Source: Chiua virens (taxonomy: Eukaryota > Basidiomycota > Agaricomycetes > Boletales > Boletaceae). Taken from it: 64,000 nt of DNA. A program made the translations under genes and the position numbers. Below are positions 58,872 through 64,000 of this stretch, piece after piece. The stretch covers positions 1,736,001-1,800,000 of the forward strand of contig JAHNUO010000011.1 in the NCBI GenBank assembly GCA_019787685.1. The letters run 5' to 3'. The notes beneath the pieces were generated by a model. The model saw only the letters and a list, made by a program, of their open reading frames with translations, had not been told where the DNA came from and did not search any database. Each line of letters begins with the position of its first letter. Within the stretch, counting starts at the first letter, position 1.

Positions 58872-61800
58872 TCAGCATATGACATCGCGGGATCGGCAAA
58901 AACAACTCGCAAGCGTTATTGTCTCCAGATGATATCCGGTACATGTCGCCGTGAGAGCTTGTCCCCGCTCGCGCGACTCTGCCGCACGTTCAGAGTCACC
59001 CTGCTCTTGGTGCATTTTCGCAAGAACCTAAGACAATAGCATCATCTGCACGTCCCTGATCCGATCTTCAGAGACATACCTGGATACAACAGTACTTTGT
59101 TTCGTCATCCTTCACGATGAGTATCAGATTCTGAAGACGTGTGATCGCGCCTATCACGTCTGCGTCTCCCGCCGCCGGCTACAAACAACATGACGTTCTA
59201 GTCGCATATGCTTGGTTGGAGTGGGCATCTTCCATAAAATCGGATTGCACACCTTGATAAGTAACAGTAGATTGCTCTCATGTGAATCGGCGTTTGCGAG
59301 CGCGAGATCAAGTGCCTGAGTCGCTTCCTCTTGCTTACCCCTTCCGATTTGTGCGTGAGCCTTGACGATGTAACCCATAGCTGATTCCCGAGCATCGATG
59401 GACTGGATGGGTTGATGAGCAGCTACAAGAGAAAGAAGAGGTTACCGAACCACAGTACCTTTTGCGCATCCTCGCATGCTGAATCCCAGTTTTGATGCCG
59501 TGTGTGAATAAGGGCGTTATGAGCGAGTACGTGATGAACGACACTGGGGGAATTCGATGGGTCGTCATCGGAGATCGGTGTATTGGCATCAATGGCGCTT
59601 TCACGCATCCACTGTCTGAAATCATGGACACTCGGTACCCGCTGAAGGACTTCGGTAACCTGTCCTGTCTGAGTGTCGAGTGTCGAATGTACATGAGCGT
59701 CATCGATTCATCGCTGTCAAGATAACCTACCCGGCGACGTTCTGCATCTACTGTCTCCACCTGCTTCTGTGCAACATCTACCGCTGCTTGCAAATCCAAA
59801 ATTCTCTGGTTCGCTTCGGCGACCTCCCTGATCCGGGTGTCGAGCTTGGACTGCATCTCAGATTGTTCGTCCTCACGGCGGCGAACTTCGGCGTCACACG
59901 CGGCTTTGACTACCTCTATTTCGTTCTGTGCAGATTCCAGAGACGTCTGAAGAGCCGCGATGTTCCTGTTTGCTTCGATCACCCCCTCCATGCGAGCATC
60001 GATCGTGGATTCAAGTTGTGATTTGTCGTTCTTGTGCTCTGCTTCTAATGTCGCCGCGTCCTTCTTCGCAGTATCCAGAGCCGTTTCCAAAGATGAGATT
60101 TTCCGGTTTGCGTCCTCAACTTCCCCCGACCGAACGTCGAGCGTAGATTGAAGTTGTGATTTTTCACTTTGGAGACGGTCCATCTCGTTCTGGTGTTCCG
60201 CTTTGAATGTCTCCGCGCCCTTCTTCGCAGTAGTCGAGAGCTGTCTCCAAGAACGAGATTTTCTGGTTTGCGTCCTCAGCTTCCCCCGACCAAGCATCAA
60301 GCCCAGATTGAAGTTGAGTTTTGTCACTTTCGAGACGATCAATCTCAGTTCTGGTGCTCTGCTCTGAATGTCTCCGCGTCCTTCTTCGCAGTATCCAGAG
60401 CCGTACTCCAAAAGCAAGATGGTCTGGTTTGCGTCCTCGACCTCTCTCGACCGAGCAGTCGAGCGCAGATTGGAGTTGCGATTTGTCACTCTCAAGGAGG
60501 ACGATCTCGACATCTAGTTCTCCTCTGAGGGTTTCAGCGTCCGTCCGCTCTGCTTCTAGATCAGCTTGAAGAACCGAGATCGTCCTCTTCGCTTCCTCCA
60601 CCTCCCCTGCGCAAGCGTCAAGCTCAGATTGCAGCCCAAATTTCTCGCCATGAAGACGTCCGACGTCGGTCTGGGTCAGCACCGTCTCAAGTCTGTTCTG
60701 CGCAGCATCCAAGTCTGTTTGCAACTTCCGCGATTCTCTGGGTCGCTCCGGCAACCTCCTCTTCCTGAGCGTCCTAGTGCCGCTTGTAGATCGAACTTCT
60801 CTTGTTCAAGACGCGCGGCTTCAGCATCACGTTGGACGTTCAACGTGTCGACAGCGGCTCTGGCTTCATTCTCGGCCGTTTCGAGGGCACGTCCGAGGTC
60901 CGAGACTCGTCTGTCGATTTCATCCACCTCCCTTGTGCGGGCGTCGAGTGCCGACTGCAAGGCAGCGTTGTGTTGCTGAAGCTGAGAGATTTCGAGATCA
61001 CGTTGGGCTCCAATTGCGTCGATGATGGCGTTCTTGTGTTGGATTTCTACCTCCTGTTGTTCAAATACACGTGTCGTGGTCTATAAGATGGTGATGGAGG
61101 AGAGAGGTAGACAGCCACTCACTAACTAGATCAGGACGAGGTTGGTGCACTGTGAAGCACAGAAACACAGAGCTGACGAGTACTCACATTCTAAATAGTG
61201 AATTATGAAACCTTGGCGATGAAAAAGAATCAATGGGGACTCACTTGCTAGATGGGATATGATGAGCAGATCTTCATGAGACGCTGTGACATACAGAGGC
61301 ATAAAATTTACACACAGTCTAGAAGGGGACACGATGTCTCGTGAGACAGCTTGCACGAGCAGGAAGTTGAGAATTCACCTACTCGCTACACGAGACGTGA
61401 TCACAACATATTCAGCGAGAGGCGACTGAGAGAGTGAAGACAATCACTCACGAACTGTACGAGAAAGGCACGATGTAAGTTACAGAAGAACCTCGGAATC
61501 GATGGTCACTCACATACTATGTAGATAAAACACAATATAACATGAGACGGCTCTATAATGAGGCGATAATCACTCACTTCCTAGGTTGGATGAATTGAGC
61601 ACAATTCAGTCAGTGAGACAGCGGCAAAGGCAGTGATTCGACCATTGCTCACATGCTAGCAAGATGGAACAAGCGCGAGATAATTTGTGAGATGGCTGAA
61701 GGAGCAGGCACTCGACGATTCCATACCATCTAGACGGAGAGCAACAATCACGATGCGCAATCTTAGATAACTACATGATAACAGGCGGTCAACGATCACT

Positions 61801-61878
61801 CACAGACTTGAGGTAGACAAGGAATTCAGAGTTCCATAAGATAGACCGAGAAAAACATGTACCACGTATACTCACCAT
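58872..61878 (-). CDS. Coiled-coil/TPR protein with a micro-exon 5' end
   Basis: Likely start ATG 61878, directly followed by GTGAGT. Eleven micro-exons follow (see separate entry), then a long exon from 61080 with TTRVFEQQEVEIQHKNAIID and heptad-rich coiled coil containing a tandem 159-bp repeat. A GGTAGG or GTAGGT intron leads to TEVLQRVPSVHDFRQWMRES, AIDANTPISDDDPSNSPSVV and HNALIHTRHQNWDSACEDAQ, then SAMGYIVKAHAQIGRGKQEE, TPR-like. Two short exons follow (AITRLQNLILIVKDD; VLAKMHQEQGDSERAAESRE); stop at 58872-58874. The C-terminal half matches the TPR half of Agaricomycete WD40/STAND-like proteins. About six +1 insertions between 60780 and 60230 break the coiled-coil frame, though they sum to zero modulo 3. 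It may be a pseudogene, or the reads may be uncorrected. Confidence 0.7.
60030..60510. repeat. Tandem ~159-bp coding repeat (coiled coil)
   Basis: Three units of about 159 bp (53 codons) on the minus strand encode variants of GEVEDANQKIS.LETALDTAKKDAETF. The shared DNA includes GCGTCCTTCTTCGCAGTA and GGTTTGCGTCCTC on the plus strand. The unit nearest 60030 keeps its frame. The middle unit has one extra base (about 60232), and the distal one has three (about 60350, 60407, 60457). Confidence 0.85.
61081..61878 (-). other. Array of one-codon micro-exons and related introns
   Basis: Reading the minus strand, AG-NNN-GT signals recur every 54-74 nt. Exons in order (plus coordinates): ATG 61878-61876, TCT 61806-61804, ATG 61729-61727, CAT 61655-61653, GAA 61580-61578, TAT 61516-61514, TTC 61454-61452, CGAGTAG 61385-61379, ACTGT 61318-61314, CAA 61247-61245, AAT 61190-61188, TTA 61125-61123, then the long exon from 61080. 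Donors are nearly all GTGAGT and acceptors mostly TAG. Joined, they read without a stop into the coiled coil in the right phase (M S M H E Y F R V D C Q N L T T R). Several introns share GTGAGTGAT and a central GTCTCA, suggesting they arose from one another. Confidence 0.65.
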
Positions 61879-62837
61879 CTCGGCTTCAAGCTTCAGACTT
61901 TGTCACTTGACAAAACGAGAGCGCTCGCAGAGTGAAAACGGCTTGGAGATGGTGGGCGCACGGTGACGACGTGACGTGACATCGTCCTAAGTTACTTATG
62001 CGTATGATCTGCGCATAGCAGATTTGGTATTATTCGTGCTCGGGTCCAAAAGAGGTATCAATATATATATCGATCACTGACGGCGGCGGCGTTGGACGAT
62101 GTTGATTCCACTCACCACTAAGCCATAGATGAGTTTGTCGCATTGAACCGGCCGGGCCTTAAGTATGTTCAATGTTCCATCCCAGAGTTAAAAAATAATT
62201 GTAGAGCAGACTCACCACTCTCACCGGCCCTCCAATCCACAGCGTGGGCAAAAACCCAGATGAAGATGAAACACGGGAGACCTTCAAGTCCCAAGCTTGT
62301 AGAGTCACCAGACCTACTAGTAAAACAGTGGAAAACTGAGCGCAGAACGCAAGTGCAACATGGACCACTCACGCTTCAGAACCTCAGAGCCGTGCAGCTT
62401 GAAGCACGGCGATTACATAGTAGGTTCTTCACGGAGCCGATTCACCGGCGGAGGTTGATCCGGATCGGATAAAGTCGGGTCGATGAACCCGACGACTACT
62501 TCCTACACCACCTTCGTATGATCTATACATCCTCAGATAGACCCACGACGACAACGTATCACTGCGGAACACTTCCGGGTTGAGCGAAGGCGAGAAGTAC
62601 GGACAGAGAAGAAGCTGCACGAGCGCACTGTTCGGGACCGGAGAACGACTTGCACCGACTCGGATCACTGCAACACGTTGTACTTGTCCGTTAGGACTCG
62701 GAATAAGGTCGTGTGGTGAACTACACCCGCGGAGGCGTTTGGGCTATGCAAAATGTGAAACCAGCCTCCGAGTCGGATCAACAAAAGGTAGTAAAATAGA
62801 TGCGTCCATTTGTTCATTTTTGTGGCTATGCATCCAT
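61879..62837. other. Upstream region of the coiled-coil/TPR gene
   Basis: Contains the 5' region of that gene, including a near-palindrome around 61908-61925 (TTTGTCA/TGACAAA type). Minus-strand donor-like ACTCAC signals near 62107, 62214 and 62367 hint at more small exons, but no frame is convincing. No gene is called. Confidence 0.35.
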
Positions 62838-63056
62838 TCAAGTCAACGAACGTTGAAACGTTGACGATGACTGCAATATTCTTTTGCGTTGTTTTTCGGG
62901 CCAAGAGATTGCATAATAATTCCCTGGACCAGGCTGCTGCGTAATGTACATAGCAGTAGCGTCGCCCCACGCGGACGAGTCAACCTCTCTCCAACCATGG
63001 TCTGCATGAAAACCGGGGAAACAGCAAGTCAGGAAGAAGTTTGAGTTCGTTCCCAT
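62838..63056 (-). CDS. Putative exon of an unrecognised gene
   Basis: This 72-codon minus frame reads FHADHGWREVDSSAWGDATA and then YITQQPGPGNYYAISW, which has protein-like composition and lies near splice-like signals. No family is recognised and neither neighbouring exon was found. It could be part of a gene extending to either side. Confidence 0.3.
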   Translation of the reverse strand: MGTNSNFFLTCCFPGFHADHGWREVDSSAWGDATAMYITQQPGPGNYYAISWPEKQRKRILQSSSTFQRSLT

Positions 63057-64000
63057 GAGCTATTGACATGCATCTTGGCAAACGTTGATACACTTCATGA
63101 TTAAGCTCAGTGATCTCAGTGGCGACTCGGTCACTCGGTGTCACTCAGTGTCAAATACATACCCGTGATGACTATGTAGTAAGTTGGCAACGTAGAGTTT
63201 GGCCTCAACGAGGTTTGGGTTCAGATAGAAGTATTGTGCATTTCAGACGCGCCTTAGTACTAGTATAAATGCAATCTCTCCCACGTCACGCAGCCTACAC
63301 CTCAAGCCATGATGTTACAGTCATAATTCCAGGCTACAGCGGATGAAGTTGAAGGCGCTCCGCAATGATTACACCAACAGGTATGCCATAGTACGCATGC
63401 CAAAAATGTATGTATCCATGGTTATGCACTACGCCGATCTACAAATGTTCCCGGTGCCTGAATTTGTCAATGCCGTCACAGAGGGAATCTCCCTTTTCAA
63501 ACGCCGTGTTTCAACTTGAAGTCGTTCTTCGTCCGTCTGCGTCTTAATTAACGTTTAGTATACACCGAATGGCGGACCATACCTCGAAAATCCACCCACG
63601 CCATCCACGGCGCATGCCTATATGTAGAGCCAGCGATCAAGTCGGACTCTGCGAATAAGCTGTTTCAAGACGGAGACCAAATCGTATATGCGCTTTGTTA
63701 CTTGGGGTGAACCATGAACCAACCCTATCGAGGAGGATGAACATCGTCCACGTGAAGCCGGATGAAATCCAAAGTTACATGTGGCCACTCACACGTATGT
63801 TTTAGACCGATCATGCCGACTCGGACACTGTTGAATCACTCACGTTTAGCAGCGGGTGCGCCATGAACCGGAAAATTGAATAGCTTGGACTTTGCAAGCA
63901 GTTTAAGGAACCACGTGCGTGACATATCAAAGCCACTAACTATGCTCACATCATAGAACAGACAATCATCGAGCCACTCTGAATGTTGAGTCAGGAGAAG
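63057..64000. other. Window end, possible split gene
   Basis: Donor-like GTGAGT on the minus strand (plus ACTCAC near 63789 and 63837) and a GTATGT near 63160 suggest introns, but open frames are short. I cannot define exons here. Confidence 0.3.

Follow-up and report, generated by a model that had tools for sequence, protein, structure and literature searches.

Tandem one-codon exons in Chiua virens: a probable array at the start of a coiled-coil/TPR gene and larger arrays in a GTPase gene family

Results

Eleven putative one-codon exons at the start of a window gene

We analysed a stretch of 64,000 nucleotides (nt) from the basidiomycete Chiua virens (assembly GCA_019787685.1, contig JAHNUO010000011.1, positions 1,736,001 to 1,800,000 of the forward strand; hereafter the window, whose own numbering is used for positions given without a contig), in which the 5' end of a coiled-coil/TPR gene on the minus strand can be read as an array of exons of one codon each. 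From ATG 61878, eleven units made of an acceptor, three bases and a donor follow one another up to the coiled-coil exon at 61080, just where an earlier reading made from the letters alone (the sequence-only reading) had placed them. The putative start codon (61876..61878), the first ATG after an in-frame TGA, is the last codon of exon 1. The one-codon exons are TCT (Ser, 61804..61806), ATG (Met, 61727..61729), CAT (His, 61653..61655), GAA (Glu, 61578..61580), TAT (Tyr, 61514..61516), TTC (Phe, 61452..61454), CGA (Arg, 61383..61385), ACT (Thr, 61316..61318), CAA (Gln, 61245..61247), AAT (Asn, 61188..61190) and TTA (Leu, 61123..61125). The sequence-only reading had nine of these at 3 nt and assigned 7 nt to the CGA exon and 5 nt to the ACT exon; the nine stand as described, while better donors bring the other two to 3 nt (CGA|GTAGGT, donor 61382, 4.7 versus CGAGTAG|GTGAAT, donor 61378, 4.1; ACT|GTGTGT, donor 61315, 5.0 versus 4.3 at 61311), and all eleven can thus be read as exactly 3 nt.

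The twelve introns, each with a donor and an acceptor of its own, are 69, 74, 71, 72, 61, 59, 66, 64, 68, 54, 62 and 42 nt long in 5' to 3' order, from intron 1 (61807..61875, acceptor AAG, score -2.1) to intron 12 (61081..61122), for which an in-frame alternative acceptor at 61053 would give a length of 69 nt (score -3.4 versus -3.9). The tract is therefore a run of AG-NNN-GT units with complete introns. Its peptide, MSMHEYFRTQNL, continues into TTTRVFEQQEVEIQ of the coiled-coil exon, and the phase joins the frame of exon 61080 without a stop, as the sequence-only reading had worked out.

The array compared with chance

Splice-site models were taken from the same genome, using a gene finder self-trained on 264 kb (the window plus 20 stretches of 10 kb) that yielded 212 introns and took over from an earlier set of 27 introns from long open reading frames (ORFs), which was too small. 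Introns of the trained set have a median length of 54.5 nt, donors mostly of the form GTRNGT and a branch point Y-T-(G/C)-A-(T/C). Chains were scored with splice matrices from 206 introns outside the window gene, and the evidence was restricted to chains of fixed 3-nt exons, since scans with free exon length yield strong false chains. With exon length fixed at values from 1 to 30 nt on both strands of the 264 kb, the eleven-exon 3-nt chain scored 42.9 and the next best chain 9.4; among 3-nt chains in simulated sequence (40 strands, 264 kb each) the highest score was 7.1. Freeing the exon length narrowed the margin (29.8 for the array versus 15.5 and 15.4 elsewhere), and looser free-length settings gave 22.2 on the antisense strand of a long interspersed nuclear element (LINE). 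A transporter-like gene, named by eye, was rejected as a further micro-exon chain: the free-length scan scored a path with 8- and 1-nt exons above the path with normal exons, but the latter, with in-frame exons of 29, 24 and 25 nt, fits as well.

Individual array introns scored from -4.5 to 2.2. The 5-95% range for introns predicted by the model, which had seen the window gene, was -6.8 to 2.5 and includes them all; random GT-AG pairs had a median score of -8.95. The pattern YAG-NNN-GTGAGT has seven matches on the two strands of the window, six of them inside the array. A two-unit pattern has nine matches in the 48.3 Mb genome, four in the window array and five in a small 72-bp tandem repeat, versus none for the reversed control. 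An Rfam search returned a single match, far below its threshold.

Kinship and origin of the array introns

Mutual similarity among the array introns exceeds that of length-matched genomic introns, and also that of shuffles in which donor, branch point and acceptor are preserved, with none of 500 sets as alike in either comparison; similarity above background had been set beforehand as the test of their kinship. At intron positions +7 to +20 the agreement is 0.41 versus 0.264 (standard deviation 0.019; none of 1000 sets as high), and in the acceptor half it is 0.315 versus 0.267 (6 of 1000 sets). The GTCTCA core that the sequence-only reading considered shared corresponds in part to the branch point usual in this genome, yet the similarity extends beyond the branch point. 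The codon columns are at the random level of identity (0.253), and the codons are unrelated to one another. Similarity is higher between adjacent introns than between distant ones (p = 0.02 with all twelve introns, 0.05 with introns 2-11), the pattern of neighbouring introns with a common ancestor that marks intron gain by tandem duplication. Because of the intron similarity and the neighbour effect, the introns can be taken to share an ancestor, with tandem duplication of an intron-plus-codon unit as the simplest route, and this bears out the earlier proposal that one intron was duplicated together with a codon. The array introns thus appear to be old tandem copies of one intron.

Both splice sites are kept in all twelve introns and no stretch of the tract lacks them, whereas most other columns have diverged to 0.25-0.5 identity; their retention across the whole tract points to selection for splicing. 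A relic of the first part of the array lies 5.1 kb upstream, outside the window (C11:1802.9-1803.1 kb; L035:2896-3110, minus strand; 73% identity, E = 4e-14). Its start codon reads ACG, its second donor is lost and its second acceptor is changed, so that the intact signals of the array are not a matter of course. A DNA search of the genome with the whole array found the array itself only, with a reach limited enough to miss this 73% relic, and the relic as query matched only itself and the window array; the introner-like dispersing element suggested by the sequence-only reading did not emerge. Adjoining the relic (L035:3424-9068) is a non-long-terminal-repeat retrotransposon with two intact frames (RVT_1, endonuclease, RNase H).

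Large one-codon-exon arrays in a GTPase gene family

The pattern YAGNNNGTGAGTG has 278 matches in the genome versus 274 for the reversed control, which is no overall excess, and clusters occur among the matches listed. Four clusters were fetched and contain 37, 26, 19 and 25 consecutive 3-nt exons (L037, L038, L039 and L040, respectively). With a wider intron limit, L039 extends to 26 units, whose introns measure 50-100 nt and whose 26 codons include no stop, and it looks intermediate in age. The unit ATAGNNNGTAAGTGCTCTGATT, a 22-place pattern of TAG-NNN-GTAAGT plus flanks, has 998 exact matches in the genome and none in the control, and in the seven arrays read (on C4, C1, C5, C2, C8 and C26, and L039; a 356-nt case on C3 was also read) these matches trace to one gene family. 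Runs are 26-45 units long across the seven arrays. The four arrays read with their flanks (C4:1807531-1804004, C1:651198-648139, C5:322286-325025 and C2:2555503-2552917; L037, L038 and L040-L047, to which L039, L049 and L050 add further large arrays) have 45, 38, 34 and 32 units, respectively, and each is flanked by the same pair of conserved exons from a GTPase family (PF01926). The introns of the GTPase arrays are 82-83 nt long.

The exon upstream of the arrays has 54 genome matches at E <= 1, every one of which has a same-strand match of the downstream exon no more than 17 kb away; the median distance is 2975 nt, and the distance exceeds 1 kb in 53 of the 54. From this exon spacing, and from the unit listing for three of them, the remaining GTPase loci would hold arrays as well. 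A paralog on C3 (L048, C3:606300-608900) was considered as an array-free relative and rejected, being instead a collapsed array with one unit, GGA, left. The six annotated C. virens GTPase models read (P0001, P0002, P0006, P0007, P0008 and P0009) all stop at or before the array. Matches to the downstream exon at 45-50% identity were also seen where the upstream exon has none (for example on C19, C20, C21 and C57), and may form a second subfamily.

Contigs C8 and C26 (C8:1529336 and C26:106236; L049 and L050) carry three GTPase genes in mirrored order, as two haplotypes would, and probably are two haplotypes. The single array that was read on the two contigs shows the same codon series except for one extra unit (GAT, in C8) and two changed codons (TGA/CGA and CGA/GAT), and the C26 chain has two further tail units. 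Between other presumed haplotype contig pairs, spacer lengths differ by 0 to 1359 nt, with several differences near multiples of 85-86 nt.

GTPase-array triplets behave as codons

Intron identity in the C2 array is 0.991, against 0.30, 0.40 and 0.44 for the three codon columns. The other five young arrays have introns at 0.88-0.96 and codon columns at 0.28-0.56, with 1-3 intron columns as variable as a codon column. This is not the variation of a minisatellite, which would be spread over the unit with no special triplet. The 72-bp tandem repeat mentioned above (C36:95994-96221; L005, L007), with four units and AG-CCT-GTGAGT junctions, has a constant triplet in the three full units compared.

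Stop codons are rare among the array triplets. In the six arrays, including the probable haplotype pair C8 and C26, there are 3 stops in 210 triplets versus 25.8 expected from positional base composition (P = 2e-8), and TAA:TAT stands at 1:45 versus 39:27 for (G,C)AA:(G,C)AT (Fisher 5e-11), with P values that the relatedness of units makes too small. The C4, C1, C5 and C2 arrays alone have 2 in 149 versus 16.4 expected, and three further arrays, represented by exact-match units among the matches listed, have none in 59 versus 11.4. The codons hardly track intron similarity (p = 0.04 to 0.62). Because they are both hypervariable and depleted of stops, the GTPase-array triplets behave as translated codons.

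The array products look like real protein segments (RQQQLEELEEELLEFEEYELHLELLLELQQLK in C4, YPGQEGHYEYHPGYYQYQYPHQQEEE in C1), and six arrays share the closing codons (F/L)-D-(H/Q/E)-E. The upstream exon closes with ...SWFPHVE in phase 0 and so sets the phase. With the intron prior relaxed by hand to 1/60, the gene finder uses 29-38 three-nt exons in four paralogs; at the trained prior it uses 0, 0, 13 and 29 in C1, C5, C2 and C4, respectively. A related protein, P0012, gives an unbroken alignment through the linker and the domains on its two sides (444 columns, 50% identical), and probably derives from spliced RNA because its 438 codons lie on a 1529-base contig. The string of phase-0 one-codon exons in the sequence-only reading is thus supported both by the eleven window exons that can be 3 nt and by larger codon-like arrays in the same genome.

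The host gene of the window array

The first long exon (60779..61080, minus strand) opens the coiled coil and has no ATG in the first 120 residues of its frame. It is followed on the same strand by coiled-coil repeats with six frame steps (60220..60800, from ORF reading) and by a TPR-like C-terminal part (59154..59707) with paralogs on C1 and C12 at 37-42% identity. The related locus on C1 has a HET domain (PF06985) and, by eye, WD40-like repeats; no HET domain turned up in the window gene, where no search aimed at HET was made. A search of the genome for coiled-coil paralogs gave the gene itself and its internal repeat only. The coiled-coil repeats differ mainly at apparent third positions (alignment viewed, no count), and a nearby LINE frame of 1311 codons is intact, unlike the coiled-coil ORF. 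The frame steps may mean that the window gene has recently become a pseudogene in this strain, or they may reflect an assembly fault. Upstream of the array, the minus strand of 61900-64000 contains five GTGAGT motifs (four of them GTGAGTG), where the rate in the sample, 195 per 528000, would predict about 0.8.

Discussion

A probable array built from intron-plus-codon units

We consider it probable that the coiled-coil/TPR gene has a one-codon-exon array at its 5' end, that the array arose from duplication of an intron plus a codon, and that it is an independent, older case of the architecture seen in the GTPase arrays, whose runs would encode the linkers of that family. By analogy with those arrays, the window array would be spliced and translated: removal of its twelve short ordinary introns would join the eleven single codons in frame with the coiled-coil exon. 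Local duplication of the intron-plus-codon unit would build such an array, and gain, loss or skipping of a unit would change one residue and never shift the frame, because every exon is one codon in phase 0. The sequence-only reading had noted that a string of such exons would challenge exon definition. That difficulty is weakened here, as an intron median of 54.5 nt suits intron definition, the mode of recognition usually ascribed to fungi with introns this short. Most likely the introns would be recognised by intron definition and removed one by one, each removal providing the following one with a full-sized exon upstream. The benefit may be tolerance or generation of one-residue changes.

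Several observations weigh against this reading of the window array. The gene finder as trained places the start within the array, at ATG 61302; of the eleven 3-nt exons it keeps just the final two (AAT and TTA), and it omits eight array introns. The ACT unit has a 24-nt in-frame alternative ending at 61295 (donor 61294, 5.3), which the free-length scan prefers, and the last array intron, at 42 nt, is below the usual length here. The coiled-coil ORF is broken by six frame steps at about 60.8-60.2 kb, all in the same direction, and the coiled-coil/TPR protein had no homolog at E <= 0.001 among 8000 scored candidates. The window array itself, with eleven codons, is too short for a stop-codon test, and its introns (42-74 nt) are unlike the GTPase introns (82-83 nt) in sequence, with the consensus compared by eye; because the intron sequences are unrelated, the evidence from the GTPase family bears on the window array by analogy only. 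Within that family, the gene finder with relaxed prior enters the C1 and C2 arrays in another phase, and three of the six young arrays contain an in-frame stop triplet (TAA near the end of C4, TGA within C2 and C8), so either these alleles are truncated or such units are skipped. A protein search with the GTPase C-terminal region found no relative among 167 candidates, although P0012 aligns with this region in direct comparison.

Alternative explanations

We think it unlikely that the tract is instead a compound intron removed stepwise, with splice sites that are used, triplets that are mostly skipped or untranslated, and translation that starts elsewhere, for example at ATG 61302, the array then aiding removal of a long stretch or expression. 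Such a tract would agree with window codon columns at random identity, with the start chosen by the gene finder and with codons too few to reveal selection. However, the triplets of the GTPase arrays are stop-depleted and codon-like, unlike untranslated triplets, and with a start at 61302 the coding model would have no use for eight of the twelve introns.

Introner-like insertion, in which copies of one intron were placed between existing codons with no joint duplication of intron and codon, seems to us improbable to a still greater degree. It would account for related introns next to unrelated codons in the window, and for GTPase codons that do not follow intron similarity, but eleven phase-0 events would be needed, each one codon apart from the last. 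The array and relic DNA searches (the former of limited reach) found no dispersed copies of the window introns, adjacent introns are the more alike, and the C8/C26 pair of arrays differs by a whole intron-plus-codon unit.

We give very little credence to a decayed tandem repeat with accidental splice-like ends and no splicing, which would fit the mutual similarity of the intron units and the broken downstream ORF, since every unit retains AG, three bases and GT while most other columns decayed, the true relic nearby did lose such signals, and the look-alike 72-bp repeat on C36, four units long, differs from the arrays in that its triplet is constant. The fall-back offered by the sequence-only reading, a decayed repeat with the real gene starting downstream, is likewise disfavoured by the twelve intact introns and by the lack of an ATG in the first 120 coiled-coil residues, yet it keeps the gene-finder start at 61302 on its side.

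Returning to the reading of the window tract as a translated array, we raise a more doubtful extension of it: possibly, the arrays are a diversity-generating device in which introns that are near-identical tandem copies allow recombination, gene conversion and splice skipping to act in one-codon steps while the frame stays intact, producing hypervariable segments as in a fungal recognition or immune repertoire. If so, the 54-copy GTPase family would carry hypervariable segments, possibly with many protein variants per gene, and the coiled-coil/TPR gene, which has relatives among HET-type recognition genes, would be an older form of the same device.

Significance and comparison with known systems

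If the arrays are spliced as read, they show how far intron definition can reach, they display intron gain by unit duplication at several ages within one genome, and they offer a frame-safe route to hypervariable protein regions. If RNA confirms the reading, genes can be built and varied by single amino acids. To our knowledge, no gene is known to be read one codon per exon over a long run of residues, and word searches found no runs of one-codon exons in the open PubMed Central papers that they covered. Such genes may have been overlooked because annotated models, like those of the GTPase family, stop at or before the array.

The systems compared here are characterised from the available portions of the cited papers. 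Schistosome micro-exon genes (MEGs) have several small symmetrical exons in a row, whose skipping keeps the frame and gives variants (PMC4015677, PMC4350168). A row of symmetrical micro-exons is common to both, as eleven 3-nt units in the window; but micro-exons make up most of the coding region in MEGs, whereas the window array contributes 33 nt next to at least 134 codons in the frame of the next exon, and here the exons are one codon each and the introns are related tandem units. Ultra-short exons are reported as 1-nt exons in plants (including Arabidopsis), a 3-bp exon in Drosophila hth, exons of 3-18-22 bp in human RPS24 and a 1-nt exon in Fusarium CYP621A (PMC8831610, PMC7392893, PMC11162997, PMC12940212). 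Exons of 1-3 nt are thus spliced in nature and two or three micro-exons in a row are known, but such exons occur singly or in small numbers, and the available text of these papers holds no run of one-codon exons. P450 genes of Phanerochaete, also a basidiomycete, have exons down to 6 bp and introns of 45-55 bp (PMC1184071); they come from a related fungal class, but their small exons are scattered without an array and the available text does not describe the introns as related.

Fungal introner-like elements are introns copied from introns, with many near-identical copies dispersed in unrelated genes (PMC4457414). The copying from introns is alike, whereas dispersal was not found for the window introns by our searches of limited reach. 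Intron gain by local duplication likewise creates new introns, but it yields one new intron rather than a run of codon-bearing units. In stwintrons, consecutive fungal splicing reactions take place in a compact region and one intron splits a splice element of another (PMC7138796, in the portion available), whereas every window intron is complete with its own donor and acceptor. Beside these systems, we regard the architecture as categorically new, although its parts, canonical introns and codons, are ordinary.

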